Positions 7,896-55,088 of a stretch of 64,000 nt of DNA are shown piece after piece; position 1 is the first letter of the stretch, and each line of letters begins with the position of its first letter. A program made the translations under genes and the position numbers. The DNA is taken from the NCBI RefSeq assembly GCF_032854445.1, contig NC_088295.1, forward strand, positions 46,053,385 through 46,117,384, read 5' to 3'. The notes beneath the pieces were generated by a model, which was given only the letters and a program-made list of their open reading frames with translations, was not told the DNA's origin and did not search any database. This DNA is from Liolophura sinensis. Its lineage: Eukaryota; Mollusca; Polyplacophora; Chitonida; Chitonidae.

Positions 7896-8165
7896 TACAG
7901 ATGTTATGTGGACTGAAGGGTTTTGGGGAGCTGTCTATATACATGTACTGCCTATTAACTCCTGCACTACAGATGTTGTGTGGACTGAAGGGTTTTTGGA
8001 AGCGGTCTGTCTGCATGTACTGCCTATAAACTCCTGCACTACAGATGTTATTTGGACTGAAGGATTTTTGGAAGCTGTCTGTCTGCATGTACTGCCTATT
8101 AACTCCTGCACTACAGATGTTGTGTGAACTGAAGGGTTTTTGGAAGCTGTCTGTCTGCATGTACT
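7896..8165. repeat. 72-bp minisatellite, about 3.7 copies
   Basis: CAGATGTT recurs at 7898, 7970, 8042 and 8114, exactly 72 bases apart. Each unit holds a copy of GGACTGAAGG and TGCATGTACTGCCTATTAA. Because 72 is a multiple of 3, both strands show long repetitive ORFs (for example units containing MQTDSFQKPFSPHNICSAGV on the minus strand). These are by-products of the periodicity. Confidence 0.85.
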
Positions 8166-8479
8166 ACCTATTAAATCCTACACATCTACAAGATTTCCTG
8201 CACATCTACCATTATATAGTAGCTTCGTCTTTCAGAGATGATTGTTTCCAGGATTTTTTTCTTCTAAATTCCTTACAAATTATAAAGTTAACTAAATTTT
8301 GTATATAATGGGACTATTCCCTTGATATTTAATATTTCTATGCTTACCTGGTCTTGATCTGTATATTCAGTTCAAATTCCATACAAGCCATTATTTTCAT
8401 TGATCTTCAGATAAAGGGTTTCAGTAATGACAATTTTTTGTAACTGATGCAACAGTAGACTAGTTTGCTTCATCACACA

Positions 8480-9060: not shown

Positions 9061-10190
9061 TATACAGAAGTGAAATAATCTTGTTATTCTCACAACATCA
9101 CAGTGCATGAAGGGGATATATCTTCCCGCTCCCTCAATGTGTCAACTAAGTTACACATTACACTAACTAAATGGCTGCTGTTGTCAAAGTTAAAAATTCC
9201 ACATTCCCATAAATTAAATATCAATTACCGTAAGCCAAGGAACTGAAGTAGTGAGAGGTGCATTCAAGCCGGCATTCAAGCTGGCATCCTCACTGGCCAG
9301 TGGCTGATTGGCTATGGTTAGAACAAGTATTTGAGCCAAATGAGCCAGTAATGACCACCTTGACTGACCAGATTCCACAGGTTGTAATATTCACAACTGC
9401 AGCAGAAAAGAAGCTTGTAATGTATGTAGTTATTACTCCAAAAATATTTGTCAAACATAAATTACATTTATTCTATGTATTAAACCTCAACAAAGTATTA
9501 CATAAACAATCACTACAAAAAATTGTAAGATGTTGCCTCAAAGTTTCCACCTGTGAACAAAAAATGAATTTCCAATACTTTTAAGGACTATTCAGTTTAA
9601 GTACAAACCTTTATGTGGAGATTAATGGAAACTATTTTGGTAGCTTTAATATTTATCGATCCATTTCAAACTTAATCATGCAATGTATACATGAGAAATC
9701 AAGTACTTCCAAGTACTTATCCTAAAAAAATTTCTTTCTCAAGGACTTTCAAGGTTTTGAAAAACCTTTCAATGAAATCCAAGTACTTTCAAGTACTCAT
9801 CAAGAAATGGCGGATGTGGAGAGGTGTAGATGGCATAAGTGGAATATCAAGGGAAAAAAGGGTAAAATTCACAATTCCATGCTTGAACGGTTATTTTTCA
9901 TTTCTTTTCCTTCCTTCATGTTTCTCTCACTTTTGTTTCCAACAACCTAGATGTGCGGCCGTTATTTCTAAATGTAAGGCATTATTCTGTGACACAAGAA
10001 TTCAAATACAGATGCATTTACATAATGGAATCTCGTCTTCATGAAGTGCATACAAATACTTAGAGATACATACACCTATCTTTCATTTCCTTTGCATTTA
10101 TTTCACATTGTTACGTTACTGTTCTTGAGATGACTACTATTTCTACAGGTCACTAAATAAAACTCTCACAACTTATCAAATTAAACCTAA
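9060..10190. other. Intergenic / annexin 3' flank
   Basis: No exon recognised. It contains imperfect CAAGTACTTTCAAG-type short repeats at 9690-9800 and a minus-strand AATAAA at 10097-10102 that could end the annexin transcript. Confidence 0.4.
10097..10102 (-). terminator. Candidate annexin polyadenylation signal
   Basis: TTTATT on the plus strand, that is AATAAA on the minus strand, about 640 bases past the annexin stop codon and just beyond the 59-bp array. If used, the whole array is transcribed as 3' UTR. Confidence 0.35.
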
Positions 10191-10191
10191 C

Positions 10192-10800
10192 TGTAGAGGT
10201 TTCTTGTAAATGTCCATTGCAGTTATCCTTCAATCTCAGCAATTGAAATGTGGTGGAAGTTTCTTTTAATCCTAACTGTAGTCATCCTTCAATCTCTGCC
10301 ATTGAAGATTGCATGTAGATCCCCTACAATCCACGCCCACAAGAGCTTTTGGAAGTTTCTTGTAATCCCCACCCCATTTATCCTTCAATCCCTGTCCACA
10401 AAACTTGTAAAAGCTTCTTGTAATCCCCACCCCATTTATTCTTCAATCCCTGCCCACAAGAACTTGAAAGAGCTTCTTGTAATCCCCACCCCATTTATCC
10501 TTCAATCCCTGCCCACAAGAACTTGTGAAAGCTTCTTGTAATCCCCACCCCATTTATTCTTCAATCCCTGCCCACAAGAACTTGAAAAAGCTTCTTGTAA
10601 TCCCCACCCCATTTATCCTTCAATCCCTGCCCACAAGAACTTGTAAAAGCTTCTTGTTATCCCCACCCCATTTATTCTTCAATCCCTGCCAACAAGAACT
10701 CGAAGAAGTTTTACTGTAATCCCCACAGAAACCATCCTTCAATTCCTGCCAACGAGAGCTTGTAGAAGTTTCTTGTAATCCCCACTGCAGTCATCCTTCA
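10192..10800 (-). repeat. 59-bp minisatellite derived from the annexin last exon
   Basis: CTTCAAT anchors occur at 10228, 10287, 10383, 10441, 10500, 10559, 10618, 10677, 10737 and 10796, with a degenerate one near 10324. Spacing is mostly 58-60. The unit at 10737-10796 lies in the annexin terminal exon and encodes its end ([14 protein letters not shown], stop). The downstream units keep the same reading frame and stop, for example GDYKKLFQVLVGRD-stop and GDYKKLSQVLVGRD-stop. The units between 10383 and 10677 are nearly identical and the outer ones are diverged. Confidence 0.9.
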
Positions 10801-13800
10801 GCCAACGCCACAAAGTTTGTTTGGTCAGCTCCAAGAACCACTGTTTAATCTGTTCCATGTCAATCTGAGAAGAAAAACAAGCCAGTTTATCCTCATAAGT
10901 CCAATAATGGTACTAAGATTGATTCCTTGATTGCCGCTTAGCTCCATACTACAGGTCAGTTTTATTCATTTCGGAAACTTGAGTGCTCCTAAGATTTGAT
11001 TTACAGACTTGTAGGCCTTAAGCCATATTGGTCTAAGGTAATAAGCAGTCAATGACACTCATACGGCTGTTTTGATCAGTTTTATATCCATTGAGGAACA
11101 CTTGTCAACAGCGGAACAGAGGAGTATCCCCTACAAACAGTGAGATTGCAAAAACTTGGGCTTCAGTTGTCCACCCACACCAGCATTACCTGATTGCTTT
11201 GATAAGTTACATACGGAACAATCACAACATTGATGAAAAATATGCAATTTGCTGTAAAATTGACATCAACTCTATATTCCTTGCTCCTGTGGGCGACTCT
11301 CGAGGACCAGGTACTCAACATTGACAAAAGTTGGACCAATGAGTTTGTGTCTTTTAGTCCATTTTTTGGTTCCTCGACTGATCCTCTAATTTCCTGCTCC
11401 CTTTGCTTTACCTATAAGCCTCCATGTTTGTTTGCAAATTTGTATAAATCTGAATGGGAGCAGGCCATGAACGAGTGGTTAACATGCTGCAGGCGCCTCC
11501 GTGACCGAGGGGGTTAGCATGCTAGCACAGTGCAATGACCCAGGAGCCTCTCACCAATGCGGTCGCTGTGAGTTCAAGTCCAGTTAATGCTGGCTTCCTC
11601 TCTGGCAATACATAGGAAGGTCTGCCAGCAACCTTTGGATGGTAGTGGGATTCCCCCAGGCACTGCCCGGTTTCCTTTCACCATAATGCTGGCTGCTGTC
11701 GTATAAGTGCAATATTCTTGCGTAAAAAATAAATACATAAATCCAACCTTGCCTTGAACAGGGATTTGTACATTCAACCAGCACCTGTCTTCCACTAATA
11801 AGGTGTGAATATCTGTACATTACATTTGGGTATGTTTGTCAATAAGTTTCATCCACCCATAAAACTGCCAAAGATTTATTTATTTATTTGATTGGTGTTT
11901 TACGCCGTACTAAAGAATATTTCACTTATATGACGGCGGCCAGCATTATGGTGGGTGGAAACCGGGCAGAGCTTGGGGGAAACCCACGACCCTCCGCAGG
12001 TTGCTGGCAGACTTTCCCACGTACAGCTGGAGAGGAAGCCAGCATAAGCTGAACTTGAACTCACAGCGACTGCACTGGTGAGAGACACCTGGGTCATTAT
12101 GTTGTGCTAGCGCACTAACCAACTGAGCCATGGAGGCCCCCTGCCATTACAAAAGAAAAAAAATTCTTGAGTATAGCGTAAAACCAACAATCAAAAAATG
12201 TGACATAAATTTGTACCAATGCTTTGGTACACATGGCAGGCTCTATGAGACAATCGCTGACACCCTCGTTTTGGGTGTCATGTACACTGTAGCGTGCAGC
12301 TGCAAATCTTTGAAACCATGGAATAGAAATTGTTGACATTTGTCACATGTCAGTTTTGGGATGATGTAAGCTCTGAAGTTCAACAACTGCTGATGGAGAA
12401 ACAAGCAGAGACTAGAGTTACGTGCATGGTTTTAAAAACTAAGACTTTAACACTGTATTTCAGCTTTTTTTCAAATGACACATGTTGTTTCATTCTGACT
12501 GATTCATCCACCTTATTGGGGCCCTTAAGAGTTTTTTTTTTATAAAGTTTGATTAATTTCTTAGCAGAAAAACCAAAGTGTTGACATCAAAATTACCATT
12601 TTCAGGCCTTTATGCTTGTGAAATTTTTACATACAAGATTTCAGGTCAATAGAAAGATTTACCTCAGAGCGTGACACGATGATCCTGATCAAGGAACGAT
12701 CATCCGTCCCCAATCCCTTCATTGCCTCGACGAGACGTTCAGCAAAGTAACGCGGCCGACAGCGAACGTTCATTACTGCAAAAAGAAATCAAAATAAGAA
12801 TGTTTGTTTCTGGTGCATTTGACACTAAAACTAAACTTCAGTGACTGGTTACAGGTTACATTTCTACTTCATCCAATCATTTACTGTCAACAAACCTGCA
12901 CCATGAAGGTGCAATTGTTAATCACAATACAGTCCTGTTCAGCTTTATTTTATGGTGGCCAGTGACATGCAAGAGCCTCTTATTTCCCTGATTATAAAAT
13001 CCTCATTTTACACTTTATTTTAATTTCTTTATCATTAAGGAATTATCATTAAGGAGTCCTTTTCATAACTCTTGATTCATTAACTCTCGATATTTTATCT
13101 TTAATTCTTAGATGCCATTCTTATAACAAGATTTTAGAATTTATGCCCAGCTCTATCTTGAAACATAACTGACTCACCAATGGCCCGGAGACCTTGCTTA
13201 TAATCCCCAGATGTTTCACGATCAACAGAATTGAGGATATCCCTCTGTGTCAACTAGAAAGTAACAAAACTCTAATTCAGCCATTTGCATGCTTCCTTTC
13301 TACACAAAGCTAACTATATGTATAAGTTCTATACGGCTGACTAGGGATCTGGTAGTGGGGGGGGGGGGGGGGGGGCGTAAAGTAACAATGTGGGACACTT
13401 AGTGTATTAAGGCAAAGAAAACACTAAAATGAAGTGTGCATCAGATGAAAGATCATTAAACACTGTTTACAGAAATATTTCCATTATTATTTTCTATTTA
13501 GTTTGAAGACAAAGAATACACTAAGATGAAGTGTGTGTCAGATGAAAGACCATTAAAACTGTTTACATAAATAATTCTATTACTATTTTCTATTTAGTTT
13601 GAAGGCAAAGAAAACACTAAGATGAAGTGTGTTTACAGAAATAGTTTGGTTATTATTTTCTATTTAAAGGCAAAGAAAACACTGAAATGAAGTGTATTAA
13701 TGAAAGATCATTAAACAGTGGTTTTGCCGAAATAATTTTATTACTATTTTCTATTTAGTTTGAAAGCGGAGAAAACACTAAAATGAAGTGTGTTTACAGA

Positions 13801-16800
13801 AATAGTTTGCCTATTATTTTCTATTAAAAGGCAAAGCAAACACTGACATGAAGTGTGTATCAGATGAAAGATCATTAAACACTGTTTTGTCGAAATAATT
13901 CTATTACTCTTTTCTCTTTAGTTTGAAGTCAAAGAAAACACTAATATGAAGTGTGTGTCAGATGAAAGACCATGAATCATTGTTACAGAATCAGTTGTAT
14001 TATTAGTATTTTCCATTTTGTTTTTTTTTTCTATAAGAAAAACAGTCACTTTAACTGCCTGACCGAGTCATGGCCCAAATGCATGTCTACCTTGGTGTAC
14101 TGTTTCCAGGTTTCTCTGAGCTGATAGTAGTCTCTGGTGGCAAAAATGCGAGTAAACATTGCTTCATCAGTTCCCCATCGGTCCTCTCCTGCCTTGAATA
14201 AGTTGTTGGCGTCACGTTTGGCCTTTTCCACATCACACAGCTTGACATAGTTCACATTGTACATGCCCGTAGGCTTCTCATCAGCCATGACTTCCTCCAC
14301 GGCCTGCTCCAGAGTTTCCCGAGGTATTGCGGCACGATTACCCTGGCAGCAAAACAGGCATGTGTAACTGAAGTTTGTTTTATTGAAAGTCAAAGCATAA
14401 AGAAATTTATTTCTAATGTGATGAATTATTAGCTATGATGAATTAATAAACTTCTTATTCCAATTACCCCAAATTACACAAGGTAGACTGATCTTTCTTC
14501 AATGAGCATGATGTACACATTAATTGAATCAATAAAATATCAAGTAAAATAGTACTATGTACAAGATCTCTAATGAGTGACCATGTAGCATCAAATGTAT
14601 TGAATGACAGTTTATAAAAATTTGTTTCCTCCGAGACTCCAGCAATATATTTATTATATATAGTTATCCCGCCCCCTTTATTCCATGTTCTTGGTTACAT
14701 TTATGGGATAAATAGAGGACATTTTATTGTAAAATTTTCAAGTGAGAGGCAGAAATGATAACCCATTTTACTGGAAAAATATTTATGATATTATGATATC
14801 ATACAGTACAGTATCCTGTATATACGTGAATGCATCTGTATATGATCGACATCAATGCAGCATATGTATCCATGTAGGATGTAATCACAATCCCTGTAGG
14901 ATCTGATTAGCATTCCTGTAGGATGTAATCAGCATTTCTGTTGGATGTGGTCAGTGTTCCTGTACAATGTGGTCAACATTCCTGCTGAATGTGATCAACA
15001 TTCCTGCTGAATGTGATCAACATCCTTGTAAAATAAGATCAGCACCAATGTAGGATAAGATCAAATTTCATATATGTATCAACATCCATGTAGGATGTGA
15101 TCATCATCTGTGTAGGATATGATGAATTTCCATGTAGGATAAGATGTGATTAACATCCATGTAGAATAAATGTAGGATATAATCAACCTCACTGTAGGAT
15201 AAGATCAGCATCCATGTAGGTATTAACATCTGTGTAGGATTTGATCTACATTCGTGTAGAATATTATCAATGTCTGTGTTTGATGTTCAGTAAGATTCAG
15301 TCCACAGAACTCACCTGAGAGGCAGAAATCAGAAGCCGTTTAAAATCTCCACTGGTATCATCTTCTATGTCCTTCTCAATCAGGGTTTGTGACTGCTTCC
15401 GGTGGGGACTGGCCACTGTCGAAATTGGTGCATTTATTTGTTGATTTTATTATTCAACTGTCGTTTAATGTCATGCAAGAGGTTTTCACCAATATGTGGC
15501 AATCAATTTTATGAGTGGAAAAAAAACATGCCCAATTTAAACCACAAACCACGGGCAGTTATGTTGGAAACTTTCCCACATGTGACATACTTATATGCAC
15601 ACAATACTGGTGGAAAACGGGTGGTCCAAAAAACGTAACACAGTGCATTTGGCCACCAGGAACATCATTGATAAGCTCTTGTCACCAATGCCCCAAGAAA
15701 CAGAGCATTTTTGTTATATTTTACACTCAAAAATACACATTGGTTGGGTGGGGGATGGGTGTCGAGAGAAGGGTGAATTTGACTGGAATGACAGTGTTGA
15801 GAGGGCAGGAACCACCAACCTTTAGCAATTTACTGATGAACTTTCTCAAATATCAAGATGTCTTCAACAAACACAAGGCTCAGCACAAACACCCCCAGCA
15901 GAGCCATGGAGCACTTACGGTCACCAATATCAAAGCCCTTGTGTGATGACTGAGAGAGTGGAAATTCAACAAATTCCCTGTAAAAGGCGGGTGTTCTTAT
16001 GCCTGAAGTGTAGGAGTCGCCCCAAGGTACCCCAGTCACCCCCAGTATAGCATGTAATATATAACACAACAGTAGACATAAACATAAGTGCAGAATAATA
16101 CTTACCATCCACATAGGCATTTCTAAGCTCCTGTATCTGAGCATTGGTCCGCGTCATCAGAATCTCTATCAGAGTCTTCTCATCCGTTCCCGGACCCTGA
16201 AATGTGACATTTAATATTATTATACATGCACTATCCACATTTGCCTATCTTTTCCTCGGTAAGTATAGATTGTCACACAGCTGGGACAAAGCAGTGGCAA
16301 CTGTGCCTGGCTTAGCTTCCATTCCATATTATATGGTGCAGATATTCATGTATATCATCATGGTATATGTGCTTTACGCAGCACAGCCATTGCTTAGTAA
16401 ATGTCTTGCAGGGCACATATGAGTACAACCTCAGTTTAATGCGTCCACTGATCATATACGATCAAACATCACATTTTTAAACCATTTCCAACGTGGGGCT
16501 TCCTTGGCATGGTGCAATACCCCAGGAACCTCTCACAAATGTCAATGCTGGGAGTTCAAGCCCAGCTCATGCTGCGTTCCTCTCCAGCCGTAAGTGGGAA
16601 GGTGTTAGCAACCCGCAGATGGTCGTGGGTTTTCCCCCGAGCTCTGCCCAGTTTTCTCCCGCCATAATGCTGGCCACCATCGTACAAGTGCAATATTCTT
16701 GAGTACAACACCAATCAAATAAATGTAAACGCGATAGTAATCTGCTACCCAGTAAATTAAAACTAGATCATGTGTAAGTTTGCAAACAGCATCATTTACT

Positions 16801-19800
16801 ATTCACTTTGAACCAAACACATTTTGTCTACAACTAATTAGTGAAAATCAAAAACATGTTTTAAAGGGATACAAAATCAATTCATATTGGCTGTGAGACA
16901 GTGGCATTGAATCTGTCCTTTGAGGACCAAAACAAGGGAGACAATCTGCTTAACTACTTACATAGATGGCTTCCTTCACACACCAAGCATCATACACAGC
17001 GGGATGGACAAAACAGGCCATGATGGCTTCTTTATAATCTCCACTCAGTTCACTCTCTAGGCACCTGATCAAATCCTGTAAGTCAATATATGAAAACAAT
17101 CCTTTAGATTAAGATGGTTTCTTTATAATTAATACTTAACACATGGCTGAGTGGTTAGTGTGACAGCATGGTGTAACCACTCAGGAGCCCCCCAGCTTTC
17201 ACCAATGCAGTCACTGTGAGTCAAGCTCAAATTGACTTTCCTCTCCAATCCAACATGGTAAGATCTACCAGCAGCCTGCAGATGGGCATGGGTTTTTCCC
17301 CAAATCACGATTAAAAATCTACCAGTGACACCAAAATAAAAGTAAATGTTAACATGAATTTACAAATCTTACAAAAAGACTCATTTGGATCCACCTATAA
17401 AATGTTAACTTATTTTTCTAGTAATCTAGGAAAATCTATATATTTAGAGAGCTTGTGTACAAGTTAAATTTACATGCAAAAAAAAATCTTGCACTTGGAA
17501 AAAAAACCATCTGGGTGTACAGGCTGGGTATGAACACTGTTTATATGACTTGAAAAACTGTGTTAGGATTTACCCTGAAACTATCAACCATACACAATAA
17601 CCCCAGATGTTTATTTGATCTGATCATTATTTAACGCTATAGTCAATAATTTGTGGGTTTCTCCCAGGCTTTGCCCAGTTTCCTCCCACCATAATGCTGG
17701 TCGCCATCGTATAAGTGAAATATTCTTGGGTACTTGATCCCCAATCAAATAAAAAAATCAAATAAAAAATAAATCAATAATTTGTGTATTATATTACAAG
17801 AGTGAGTTTTATAGAGGAAACCGGTGGCTTCACACCACTGACCTTTATGCCATGAACTTCCCACATGTGATGTACAGATATACATAACATAGTTCAATGG
17901 CCACTCAAGCATCATCTGCACTTACTGTCACCAAGGTGCCACAAGTTGTGGGAGGCTGAGCGGTGGAATCTACAAACTCCTAGTCCATTAAGGCCGGGAT
18001 TGAAATCACATAGATGTTGTTTTCTACAAGAAAATTGCTGTTTCCTAAGACTTCTCAACATCTAAATGCCTCAGAAAGATGCTATAATGTGTAACGGGTC
18101 ATGAATTTATAATAAAGAAAATCTTAAACTTCAACAGAATTTCAAAGTTTTTACAAATGACTCAAACCTTCCCAAATGCTGTTTTATACATTTTCTTCAG
18201 TTCCTGTCTTTGAGAATTGTTACGAGTGGCTACCACATGGGTTATGGCATCCTCGTTAGCTCCTGAAACACATGCAGAAAGCAATGTTCAAAACGTTTAC
18301 ACTCACACTAGCTGTAGTCATACAGCATGTCATGGTATATATCAGCAATGCACAATGCAACATAGTATTACACTTTATGAGGTGGAGAGTTATCTCCCCT
18401 CCAGCGGGCTGGCGAATCTCTTCCAAAATGAATTTTTTTTTTATCATACTGATCAAATTTATTATGACATGGACATGTGAAAAAAGTTTCACAAAAAGTT
18501 ATTTAGTAGAGTAGAGGAATGATGGAGAAAAGGAGCAGACAAAGTTTCTACTAGGAAGGAAATTTCATTTGTAAAATTTCATCTGGTAAAACAGATGATC
18601 AAAAAATAAACAAGAGCACTCGGAATTCCCCTACCATAGTTATATGCAGCATAAAATAATAGTTGCTTTAATTACCCAGCCCATCCATTGCATTCTTCAG
18701 ATAGCAGCAGTCTGCCTCAGGGTCCCAGGGTTTACCAGTTTTATCCTCGCCATCCAGTGTCTTGTAAAAGGCCACAACAGGGTCGTCACTGCTATAAAAG
18801 TGTGTCCCCTTCACTGTGCCCTCGGTCATGTCAAATGTCCCTGACACACCTTGTCGTCTGACCAATTCCTCCACAAATATCTTCTTCAAATGAGCCTTGA
18901 TATCTTCGTCATTAGTTCCCTGTCAAATAAAGGATTGTACTGACCCTTCCAAAAATAAATAAATAAATAACAAGAAACATACAACAATACAGTGAACAAA
19001 TACAATGATTTTAAAGAGGAAACATGCACAAATATAACAAAAAATTAAAATTAGAGCGCATAATTCCTGTGTTTGTATAATTCGGAACCATACCTTAAGG
19101 GAATAGACAATCAGATTACAAAGGTCATCATAATAACCTGACAAACAACTGAAAACTTTATCTAACCATACATTTGCATATCTTTGAAAACATTCTTGAA
19201 AAAAATTAAATTAATTTAAACATATTTATTGGCACCAATTAAATCAATCATAGTAACTCTCCATACCTTGCCAAATATTCTTGTGAATTGCAGCATGTTA
19301 TTAATATACACAAAATAGCTACCGGTATATCCTGACAATAATTAGTTGCTCAACAGAATTAGGGTATAAAACAACAGTTTGTGATTTTCTTCCTCTGCAC
19401 CCTACACAAGCAATATGGTCCAGAGAGCTAAAAGAAGTTCAAATATTTCAATACAAAGGAATATAATTTCGTTCTTGGTTGGTTTCTTTTTTCTGACTTT
19501 GGTACCGGTACTTAGATTGGGTCCCCAATGGTGTGTCTGACAATAATGATCACCCACAAAAAGATATGAAAATAGACCTCTCCAGATTTTCTAATTTTCT
19601 CAGATTTTCTGTGTGTTACGGATAATCTACAGGTGAACAGTTACATGTAATACTCACGTTATCTACTTCATCTTTAGTAGTGGAAGAATCTACTGGAATC
19701 TCGGCTTGCTGGATATATGTAAAAATGAAACAAAAATTGCACATCAGTTACAAAAATTTTGATAGACAATTTATTTTCTCCAATGCATGTACCAACGCTT

Positions 19801-28508: not shown

Positions 28509-31500
28509 TTACACTTTTCCACGCGCAGAGAGAAACTGATCCAGTTTGTTGATGGCATCATGGCGGGTCATAGGACCATAGCATAGCGATGCAATTGGGA
28601 TGGCATTGGAATTGACATCTTTGAGCGTGTTGCTGTTGGCAGAATTCATTGTTAGTTCATCAGTGTCATCGGCAGCCTGAGGAACTGAGCCAGGATTGGC
28701 TTGCTGCTCAGAAGACTGACAGCTCATTGCATCATTGTAAATCTCTTCAGGCTGTGCAGTTAACACAGCTGGTGTTGATGTCCGCACGTTTGCCGAAAGT
28801 GGGCTTGGTGCTGGCGTCGTTGAAACCACTTTAGTTGGCGTAGCTGGTGTTGGCAAAGCTGTTGTAGACAGAGGTGGTGTTGACACAGGTGTCGTTGACG
28901 TAGGTGGTGTTGACACAGATGTGTTTGATGTAGGTGGTGTTGACACAGGTGGCCTTGACGTAGGTGGTGTTGACACAGATGTGTTTGATGTAGGTGGTGT
29001 TGACGCAGGTGGCCTTGACGCTGATGCTGGCAACACATCTGCGCAGATATCCTTCGCTAATGAATAAATACCAGATTGAGTTATCTCCTCTTTCCTTGTC
29101 TTGACCTTTGACACCTGTGAGTAGAGCCCCTCAATGGGCTGATCAACACTTACGTAGGCCTCGCTATAGCCGGAATTCCCCACATTACCATCAGCTGACC
29201 CTGCAGGCTTACCCTTCTCACCCTCCTGTCTTCTTTCTCCTTGTTCCTCTTTTAGCTTCTTACATTCAGTGTACAGATCTGACCTTTTTGGCATAACCTC
29301 CGAGTATAACGGAGGCTCTTCTGGTTGAGATTCAGTGGGCGACATGTTACCTGGAGTGGTGCCTGGGGGTCCCCTCAGGGTGTCTACAGTCATACACACT
29401 CCCCTATTGCGAGGGGCTGGGATAGGTCTGTTCTCATGGCCGGGTGATTTAGGAATTAGACTTGGTTTCGGAAGGAGAGGTGGTGGAGTCTTTAGTCTGC
29501 AAAACATATCTTCTTTTTTTTAGCTTTTCACATTTGCTTTATTTATTTAATTGTAGTTGATGAGAAACTGTCGCATGCACTTCCACCTATCAACCTATGA
29601 TGACGGTCAGTTTACCAGTAGAGTACCAGTAAACCACTGACCTTCAGCAAGTTACTGATGAGCTTTTCCACATGTGATATGCAGATCTGCACACCATACT
29701 GGTGGAAGACAATGTCAAATGGTCTTCCACAAATATGCAAATGGCCGTGGTTGACTGCTTATTGTCACACCAAAGCACAATGAGTAGTGAGAACGAGGCA
29801 ATCTACAAATCCCCTGCCAAAGGCAGATTTTGAACCTATACTTTGTGTGTCATAGTTTTTGCTCCCTACCTGATAGATTAAGACGATACCAGAAGGCACT
29901 GCAAGAATGCAAGCTTATGCCCCCAGCAAATTGTACAATAGTCACAAGGGTGATTAGTTGGTTATTTATTTTGATTGGTGTTTTACGCTGTAATCAAGAA
30001 TGTTTCACTTATACAACGCTGGCCAGCATTATGGTGGAAGGAAACCGAGCACAGCTCGGGGGAAACCCAGGACCATCTGCAGACTGCTCTCAGACCTTCC
30101 CCGCGTACGGGCAGAGAGGCAGCCACATTTAACTTTTTCCCTGTTGAAAAGTTTGTATGACACACAAAACTGTGACAAGCTATTAAGACATCCTTCATTA
30201 TACATGTACACATACCTTGCTGGTTTATGTGAATCAGAACTAATTGGAGCCAGGTTGTGTTTCTCCGAGGACTTTGGCTGAGTGGATGGGTTTCCCTGTG
30301 ATAAGACGGTGTCAGGTGGCCCTCCTAAAGCATCAACTGTACTACAAACACCTCTTGTAGCTGGCTTTATCTTGGGTTTATCCTCCTTGGGCTTATCTAT
30401 CTTGGGTTTATCCTCCTTAGGATTATCTATGTTAGGTTCATCCTCCTTGGGATTATCTATCTTGGGTTTATCCTCATCATCTAAGTCTACTGTCTCATAT
30501 GCATGTAATTTGAATGTTGGCATATCAGGTTGGGAACTGTTCTTTCTAAAAAACAAAAAAAAAATCAACAAGAAAAATCAATATCATGAAATTTTAATCA
30601 AATGCAAAAAATAAATTTCCTTATTTCAGGAAGGTAGTTAATGTTTTTTGTTCAACTACCAAGGGGGTATTAGTATGTACTGAACTGTCATCTGGTTTAT
30701 AAGCAGAGGAAGCTGGGCAAACCTGAAACAAAACAACCACTCTTCCCGTTTTTCAATGTTATCAGAGGGTATAAAACAAAATAGAACTTGAAAATCATCT
30801 AATTTATGGAAAATGTGGCCTATCCTGGCAGTTCTTCCTGTTGAAAACATACTTTTATGATCAGAAAGCTTAAAAAAACGGAAAAATCATAAAAACACAG
30901 AGACCGGATAAAATCAAAAGGTGGATTTTCAGATTTATTTTTATTCCATTTTTGGGTTCGTTAACGCATGAAATATAATTTGTGTTGACTTACCCAGAGG
31001 CAATCTTTGGGCCCTCATCATCAATGTCCACTTCTTCATTAGGGTGACCACCATATTTGGCGACTGGCGACCTGGTTGATTCCATGCCTCTGGAAATTCA
31101 TGAACAAATGTAAGTATTGTTCAAATAAAATTCATGAACAAATGTAAGTATTGTTCACCTAAAATTCATGAACAAATGTAAGTATTGTTCACCTAAAAAT
31201 TCATGAACAAGCTTGTTTCCCTAAAAATTCATAAACAAACACAAATATTGTTCATTTAAAAATGTACAAACAAACATAGGTACTGTTCACCTAAAAAGTC
31301 TTTAGTCTGCAAAACATATCTTCTTTTTTTAGCTTTTCACATTTGCTTTATTTATTTAATTGTAGTTGATGAGAAACTGTCGCATGCACTTCCACCTATC
31401 AACCTATGATGACGGTCAGTTTACCAGTAGAGTACCAGTAAACCACTGACCTTCAGCAAGTTACTGATGAGCTTTTCCACATGTGATATGCAGATCTGCA

Positions 31501-34500
31501 CACCATACTGGTGGAAGACAATGTCAAATGGTCTTCCACAAATATGCAAATGGCCATGGTTGACTGCTTATTGTCACACCAAAGCACAATGAGTAGTGAG
31601 AACGAGGCAATCTACAAATCCCCTGCCAAAGGCAGATTTTGAACCTATACTTTGTGTGTCATAGTTTTTGCTCCCTACCTGATAGATTAAGACGATACCA
31701 GAAGGCACTGCAAGAATGCAAGCTTATGCCCCCAGCAAATTGTACAACAGTCACAAGGGTGATTAGTTGGTTATTTATTTTGATTGGTGTTTTATGCTGT
31801 AATCAAGAATGTTTCACTTATACAATGCTGGCCAGCATTATGGTGGAAGGAAACCGAGCACAGCTCGGGGGAAACCCAGGACCATCTGCAGACTGCTCTC
31901 AGACCTTCCCCACGTACGGGCAGAGAGGCAGCCACATTTAACTTTTTCCCTGTTGAAAAGTTTGTATGACACACAAAACTGTGACAAGCTATTAAGACAT
32001 CCTTCATTATACATGTACACATACCTTGCTGGTTTATGTGAATCAGAACTAATTGGAGCCAGGTTGTGTTTCTCCGAGGACTTTGGCTGAGTGGATGGGT
32101 TTCCCTGTGATAAGACAGTGTCAGGTGGCCCTCCTAAAGCATCAACTGTACTACAAACACCTCTTGTAGCTGGCTTTATCTTGGGTTTATCCTCCTTGGG
32201 TTTATCTATCTTGGGTTTATCCTCCTTAGGATTATCTATGTTAGGTTTATCCTCCTTGGGATTATCTATCTTGGGTTTATCCTCATCATCTAAGTCTACT
32301 GTCTCATATGCATGTAATTTGAATGTTGGCATATCAGGTTGGGAACTGTTCTTTCTAAAAAACAAAAAAAAAATCAACAAGAAAAATCAATATCATGAAA
32401 TTTTAATCAAATGCAAAAAATAAATTTCCTTATTTCAGGAAGGTAGTTAATGTTTTTTATTCAACTACCAAGGGGGTATTAGTATGTACTGAACTGTCAT
32501 CTGGTTTATAAGCAGAGGAAGCTGGGCAAACCTGAAACAAAACAACCACTCTTCCCGTTTTTCAATGTTATCAGAGGGTATAAAACAAAATAGAACTTGA
32601 AAATCATCTAATTTATGGAAAATGTGGCCTATCCTGGCAGTTCTTCCTGTTGAAAACATACTTTTATGATCAGAAAGCTTAAAAAAATGGAAAAATCATA
32701 AAAACACAGAGACCGGATAAAATCAAAAGGTGGATTTTCAGATTTATTTTTATTCCATTTTTGGGTTCGTTAACGCATGAAATATAATTTGTGTTGACTT
32801 ACCCAGAGGCAATCTTTGGGCCCTCATCATCAATGTCCACTTCTTCATAAGGGTGACCACCATATTTGGCGACTGGCGACCTGGTTGATTCCATGCCTCT
32901 GGAAATTCATGAACAAATGTAAGTATTGTTCAAATAAAATTCATGAACAAATGTAAGTATTGTTCACCTAAAATTCATGAACAAATGTAAGTATTGTTCA
33001 CCTAAAAATTCATGAACAAGCTTGTTTCCCTAAAAATTCATAAACAAACACAAATATTGTTCATTTAAAAATGTACAAACAAACATAAGTACTGTTCACC
33101 TAAAAAGTTTGCACCTGTAACAAGTGCCTTGAATTCCTTTTAGTAGTATTTTAATGGACTGAATCTATAAAATTAATGGCTTGGAAAGCCATTTCCTGTC
33201 TCCTAGATTAAACATGTCCTTGCCAGCCCACAGGGGTAAATCCATGATCGTTCATTCTTAATATTACTGTAATTCTTCAACCTCTTAACATGTTTGCTAG
33301 TTGTTTATTCAAGCATATTCTGAAGGCATTACTTTGTGTAGACTGATAAAGTTATACTTTTTATGAAGCCCTGAAATTGGCCAATCCGATCAATGGAGCT
33401 TTGTCTCCAAAATCAGATAACATATGTGCATAAATCACCCTCAAAGTTGATTTTTCATGTGCGAAGAGGCTGAGGAATTAGGGTAATACCTGTAATATAC
33501 AAGTCTGTATCTGAGGTTTGTTAATTCACCTTTTGATAATCCATCCCAAACTAAATGTCTGATCTATGCGGTTTTCTGATTGTTGCACCCAATCTGACAC
33601 TACTGTTGGCTAATCTATGAAACCTTCATGGTTTGTATCATCTTATCACACTGCACTCTTATTTGTTACACCATTACAATGACTATGTTACTTTTAGATG
33701 AAACTGTTTTAAGATGGTTTGAACACAAGTGTGGAAGAACATTCATTATACAAACCCTGAGTTCGCTGATGAGACACTAATTCGTCTGTTGGTCAGTAAG
33801 GTAGACTGTATAGCCTTTAACCATTGCTGACATATTTCAAGAGAATCTGCAGCCTGTAGTACAAAGTAATACATGAAAATTTATAATATTTGCAAATTAA
33901 TATATATGATTGTTGTTTAACACAATATGGAATTATTTTTCACTTTACACAATTATTTTTCACTTGCATGGAATAGCAGTATGCTGCACTGAATAACTTT
34001 CCTGTGCAAGATGTATCTTTACTGAAATCAAATATTTTTAATGAATGGTAAATTTTAATTTTTTCTTTCTATTAGTGTTTAGCTGAGGACTCCAGCAAAT
34101 TGTACAACAGTCACAAGGCTGATTAGTTGGTTATTTATTTTGATTGGTGTTTTACGCTGTAATCAAGAATGTTTCACTTATACAATGCTGGCCAGCATTA
34201 TGGTGGGAGGAAACCAAGCACAGCTGAGTTTGTGTTTAGCTGAGGACTCAGCCAATTTTGATGGTTTTCCCTCCGGAGCTCTCCATCCAAAAGCATGTAT
34301 AGCCCTTGATATAATATAAGGTTCATATTTTGATACTTTTGTCCGAATCTAAGTGGTCTCAATTTTTGAACGTGTATGACGAAAAAATAACTGGAACCGC
34401 ATAAATCACATCTCAAATGTTGACATCATTCAAAACTACAATGCAGGTTCGTGGAATCGACCCCAGGTAAACATAAACTTACGAAGGTTTCAGTTTTGTG

Positions 34501-40098: not shown

Positions 40099-55088
<14,990 letters not shown>

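Follow-up and report, generated by a model that had tools for sequence, protein, structure and literature searches.

A tandem array of units of about 59 bp was found immediately behind the coding sequence of an annexin gene in the window (the whole 64-kb stretch of DNA analysed here), and this array is very probably a minisatellite that arose from the final 59 coding bases of the gene itself. By its structure, with head-to-tail units within the range of about 10-100 bp, the array is a minisatellite. The proposal of the initial annotation, that coding DNA of the last exon had become a minisatellite behind the stop codon, was borne out, its location in a 3' untranslated region (3' UTR) being presumed.

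The window has a GC content of 0.37 and carries a spliced gene, which gives it a eukaryotic character. The gene was assembled from nine exons (E1-E9), whose borders were chosen by hand; AG precedes every exon and GT follows all but the last (eight GT donors), and the joined exons, open across all joins, encode a 403-residue annexin core. The features of this gene that are relevant here are as follows.

10739..18919, minus strand: annexin core gene with exons E1-E9, all nine positioned by hand
12663..12775, minus strand: exon E8, first half of annexin repeat 4, ending in phase 0
10739..10864, minus strand: last annexin exon, second half of annexin repeat 4, placed by Pfam, its acceptor and the C-termini of PDB entries

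Eight open reading frames (ORFs), not including that of E7, were scanned against Pfam: five scored above the cut-off, one reached 24.3 against a cut-off of 25, one was weak and one unmatched. The joined protein matched 77 distinct PDB sequences (best E 8.3e-131), and the 60 matches listed of these 77 are to annexins or to fusions of annexin A2. About 7 extra residues appear at E5 in the PDB alignments, which makes the border of this exon uncertain. With annexin repeats and spliced exons forming one open gene, the host gene is an annexin; a Pro-rich ORF near 23.6-23.8 kb probably contains its Pro-rich N-terminal exon. As for the last exon, its acceptor reads TTTTTCTTCTCAG, and Pfam family PF00191 matches the ORF at 10739-10912 (E 5.6e-07). 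PDB alignments run to the C-termini of solved annexins, query residue 402 being paired with residue 301 of 301 of 8w5s_A, residue 401 with 314 of 315 of 1aei_A and residue 403 with 325 of 326 of 6tu2_A. Solved annexins therefore end within a few residues of the end of this protein, and in the same alignments the protein text of the last exon is conserved across annexins. The annexin introns hold two more tandem arrays, at 13409-13956 (between E6 and E7) and 14873-15220 (between E5 and E6). The last intron also contains, in opposite orientation, two members of an interspersed repeat family of about 250 bp, 73-90% alike (11492-11742, 11878-12140, 16521-16724, 41852-42105, 43110-43380 and others), which we take to resemble the SINEs of molluscs and related animals.

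Tandem Repeats Finder (TRF) reported a single array at 10323-10800 with a period of 59, 8.1 copies, 87% matches and a score of 660. When cut by hand, the array was found to extend beyond the TRF limit to about 10180, and to consist of seven near-complete units, one remnant and two degenerate units that directly adjoin the last 59 coding bases. The initial count of about nine units downstream of the annexin stop agrees with these ten copies (U1-U10), the remnant U8 included. Self-matching over lags of 40-199 peaked at lags 59, 118 and 177 (0.63, 0.54 and 0.49; median 0.27), and the match at lag 59 starts abruptly at the TGAAGGATG of the exon. The units, in the order of transcription, are listed below; U2-U5 are 59 nt long each, and U6 and U7 58 nt each.

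10742..10800, minus strand: U0, the probable founder unit, last 59 coding bases, starting within the Leu-Lys codons cTGAag
10739..10741, minus strand: TGA stop codon in use, which is the first three bases of U1
10682..10741, minus strand: U1, first copy, 60 nt, diverged and unhomogenised, its frame broken by one inserted base
10388..10681, minus strand: U2-U6, homogenised block, 54-58/59 identical
10330..10387, minus strand: U7, judged by eye block-like in its first half and closer to the exon in its second; over the whole unit U4 comes nearest (51/59)
10292..10329, minus strand: U8, 38-nt unit remnant lacking its unit start
10233..10291, minus strand: U9, degenerate, 59 nt, with an exon-like GATGAC and inner stops
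10180..10232, minus strand: U10, last degenerate unit, 53 nt, its end ill defined

All ten copies but the remnant U8 (31/60) match the exon unit at 42-48 of 59-60 positions (U1 48/60, U2-U7 46-48/59, U9 44/59, U10 42/60). Four comparisons with the exon unit, U8 not being among them, were set against 2000 shuffles each; z values were 11.3 for the consensus of the middle units, 10.9 for U1, 9.4 for U9 and 8.7 for U10, and the observed score was reached by 0 of the 2000 shuffles in every case. These values bear out the initial description of the units as diverged copies of the last coding unit. The exon unit is the nearest relative of U1, U9 and U10, and marginally of U8, and the agreement of U9 and U10 with the middle units is only 35-40 positions over 59-67 columns. 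U7 and U2-U6 are closer to one another than to the exon, as would be expected under homogenisation, and this closeness would not by itself count as evidence for an origin from the exon. In a comparison of six unit types, the exon unit also lay closest on average to the other five (mean distance 0.225, the others ranging over 0.269-0.375), as expected if a founder is held by selection while its copies drift apart. No independent repeat with a better match to the units was present in the 64-kb window: outside 10100-10900 the best ungapped matches were 30/59 for the middle consensus and 31/59 for the exon unit, values that 40 shuffles of each unit also gave (29-33 and 29-34, respectively), and a blastn search of the window returned 167 off-array matches, all with E values of 0.099 or worse. 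Since U1, U9 and U10 are nearest to the exon, off-array matches stay at shuffle level and the position of the annexin C-terminus is kept, the exon is most likely the founder of the array. A 21-base core of the unit was also compared with bacterial, archaeal and viral contigs. It gave one match among the bacterial and archaeal genome contigs, to a Lachnospiraceae MAG, which was single there, was judged on 241 bases and is read as chance, and no match among the viral contigs; having covered bacteria, archaea and viruses, these scans do not bear on copies in animals.

The stop codon follows from the register of the units. U1-U7, U9 and U10 all start with TGA, and in the exon unit this TGA spans the Leu and Lys codons (c-TGA-ag) and is out of frame. 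As the period of 59 equals 3 x 19 + 2, that is 3n+2, the next TGA falls in frame, and the stop that the gene uses (10741-10739) forms the beginning of U1, so that the array begins at the stop codon itself, as expected of a 3'-UTR variable number tandem repeat (VNTR). The 59-base copies U2-U5, read likewise, also end in TGA; the repeated 'stop' is thus explained by the initial TGA of the units together with the 3n+2 period, and selection is not needed. The sequence GDYKKL(F/S)QVLVGRD-stop, previously noted in several units, is exact in three of the ten copies (U3, U4 and U5), and the other copies are altered, broken or incomplete: U2 reads GDNKKLLQVLVGRD-stop, the frame is lost in U1, U6 and U7, U9 contains internal stops, and U8 and U10 are incomplete or diverged. 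The idea that the units keep the text of the repeat 4 helix and the stop in a selected sense was not supported, the stop being a consequence of the period and the reading surviving only in U2-U5.

The 11 differences between the exon and the middle consensus fall on codon positions 1, 2 and 3 in the ratio 5/1/5, and the 15 differences between the exon and U9 in the ratio 7/6/2. Changes in the middle consensus show no third-position excess (p 0.29), so the check on codon constraint that had been suggested found no concentration at third positions in either comparison. The second-position deficit of the middle consensus (1/11) was borderline (p 0.05), and it can come in part from constraint on the exon alone. 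No clear codon constraint was seen in the copies.

The proposed birth of the array builds on what is directly visible in the DNA, namely the relation of the units to the exon, their register, the frame arithmetic, the homogenised centre and the diverged edges, and on the probable role of the exon as founder, to which the distances and the conservation of annexins point. We infer a slippage or template-switch duplication in which the base preceding the stop would have become linked to the TGA 59 bases upstream, this TGA being in frame at the junction owing to the 3n+2 length. U1 would then provide a stop at the usual end of annexins, leaving the protein unchanged, while later copies, lying in the presumed 3' UTR, would be free to drift. 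The middle block U2-U6 would have multiplied and been homogenised later, older differences being retained by the exon, presumably held by selection, by U1 and by the far end U8-U10. If the ancestral stop was already TGA (or TGAAGGATG), the stop would have been kept rather than rebuilt.

Close to the two ends of the unit stands a 7-bp direct repeat, CGTTGGC (10807 and 10754), at a spacing of 53, not 59; the TGAAGGATG found at spacing 59 may be either the copied start of the unit or a short homology that seeded the duplication. PMC3389668 describes two models of minisatellite birth, slippage at noncontiguous repeats and duplication between flanking repeats of 5-10 bp, attributes birth by slippage to Haber and Louis 1998 and Taylor and Breden 2000, and gives 7 bp as the commonest size of flanking repeat in its set; it also states that the two models account for only 6% of its transposon-derived arrays. 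The annexin array resembles the slippage-born minisatellites described there in its head-to-tail 59-bp units, its diverged and incomplete far end, its homogenised centre and the 7-bp direct repeat near both ends, here spaced 53 and not 59, and differs from them in that the founder is a protein-coding C-terminus and the start of the unit supplies the stop. A more specific version, in which the stop codon itself seeded the minisatellite because the polymerase paused in the stop TGA and then paired anew with the TGA lying out of frame 59 bases upstream, is possible but rather unlikely. A duplication seeded in this way rebuilds the stop in place and leaves the protein intact, and hence would pass selection.

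Two other accounts of the resemblance between array and exon were considered. The array might be an independent satellite, either similar to the annexin exon by chance or inserted beside it. The window is rich in tandem arrays and the search for other copies was limited to it, yet the match to the exon (z 8.7-11.3), the lack of any further copy in the window and the fact that the exon part is conserved annexin sequence leave this account barely conceivable. Alternatively, unequal crossing over or gene conversion might pass sequence between the array and the adjoining exon and thereby rewrite the annexin C-terminus, as had been suggested in the form of C-termini donated by unequal exchange. The array does adjoin the exon, and U7 looks by eye like a mosaic of the block and exon types. 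The initial remark that the middle units are homogenised held, U2-U6 being 54-58/59 alike and differing among themselves by 1-5 positions, whereas the exon differs from them by 11-13/59 and the intervening U1, which matches them at 43-47/60, is likewise unconverted. As the exon and U1 stand outside the homogenised block, nothing points to recent exchange between the array and the coding unit, and such exchange is very improbable. Descent from the exon, followed by homogenisation of the middle block, is the reading retained.

Hexamers typical of poly(A) signals occur in the array, AATAAA units (U2, U4, U6) alternating with GATAAA units (U3, U5, U7).

10671..10676, minus strand: AATAAA in U2
Starts at 10558 and 10440, minus strand: AATAAA in U4 and U6
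Starts at 10617, 10499 and 10382, minus strand: GATAAA in U3, U5 and U7
10097..10102, minus strand: AATAAA beyond the array, a possible distal poly(A) signal

The array could therefore be conceived as a set of tandem poly(A) signals, a ladder of cleavage sites whose copy number would tune the length of the 3' UTR. The first AATAAA lies 65 nt past the stop, and within U2-U6 units of the same type are closer to each other (mean distance 0.038 against 0.065), which suggests a last expansion by 118-bp pairs; this alternation is reached by 12 of 120 orders, the best value the test can give. It also speaks for a ladder that the AATAAA beyond the array (10102) has no better downstream GU score (41st percentile). 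Against a ladder, these scores, a crude count made for this analysis, put the three AATAAA sites of the array at the 51st, 51st and 83rd percentiles of AATAAA sites, at least three AATAAA per 400 bases occur in 6% of same-strand windows, the array's own included, and the exon unit, U1, U9 and U10 carry no AATAAA. The hexamers are real, their number and surroundings are ordinary, and a regulatory ladder appears improbable. Still less can be said for the array as a row of alternative last exons, in which E8 would be spliced to GGCAG and give a shortened repeat 4 ending in (G)LK..GGD.KKL..LVGRD. GGCAG had been said to precede each unit, which is not so, only seven sites being present in 10800-10180 and one of these at the end of the exon unit itself. 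Since E8 ends in phase 0, four of the seven sites would give a 21-residue tail ending in LVGRD-stop, and a fifth, that in the exon unit, a 41-residue tail; an in-frame result has a chance of one in three, common to the copies. The suggestion of internal splice acceptors fared unevenly: the seven sites are weak, with 7-8 pyrimidines in 14 positions against 13/14 at the upstream acceptor of the last exon, while the nine real annexin acceptors range over 8-13/14 and three of them, at 8, are as pyrimidine-poor as the two best GGCAG sites. With a far stronger acceptor upstream and a product short of 21 residues of repeat 4, alternative last exons are hardly credible.

Other signs of function were sought in the same region. 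RNA structure of the presumed 3' UTR (10741-10080) gave a z of -1.26, with 2 of 20 shuffles as good, which makes no case for a structured RNA element, and Rfam returned no match in the whole window at the gathering threshold. On the sequence, the best reading is a neutral minisatellite in the presumed 3' UTR, and its effect, if any, would most likely be variation in copy number, and with it in 3'-UTR length and in the number of AATAAA hexamers.

Tandem arrays are common in this window. Nine with a score of at least 100, after merging by the author, cover 3.9% of it, and four of the nine sit in the two copies of one 1.8-kb duplication; the annexin array is special among them in having a coding-DNA founder at a stop codon. 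The duplication is in tandem (29487-31299 and 31297-33108), is 99.3% identical, being either very recent or an assembly duplicate, and carries an ORF containing PKEDKPKID repeats as well as an interspersed repeat. A 72-bp array at 7896-8183 has four copies and can be read through on the minus strand as a repeat of 24 residues, and a 15-bp array at 28841-29021, within a minus-strand ORF of 336 residues, codes for a Ser/Thr/Pro-rich stretch.

Among known systems, the 40-bp repeat of DAT1/SLC6A3 is a 3'-UTR VNTR. The annexin array is like it in having tandem units behind a stop codon and differs in that its units come from the last coding bases of its own gene and in being known here from one sequence. 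In D4Z4/DUX4, also a tandem array, the position of a poly(A) signal could decide the end of the mRNA; the annexin unit is far smaller, with no evidence of such a role. Within the annexin family (PF00191), the founder corresponds to the last part of annexin repeat 4; the array itself does not consist of annexin repeats, 59 nt being less than one third of the 66-position Pfam repeat and the copies lying behind the stop. A literature search of titles and abstract openings found no description of a minisatellite in the last exon of an annexin gene.

The annexin array would be an ordinary minisatellite. Its founder can be read alongside its copies, the founder presumably having been held still by selection on the protein, which makes the case a clean one. 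The frame arithmetic places a stop at the junction, so that an array can abut a stop codon without harm. If the duplication was indeed seeded at the stop, such events would offer a general path along which C-terminal coding DNA turns into minisatellites of the 3' UTR.
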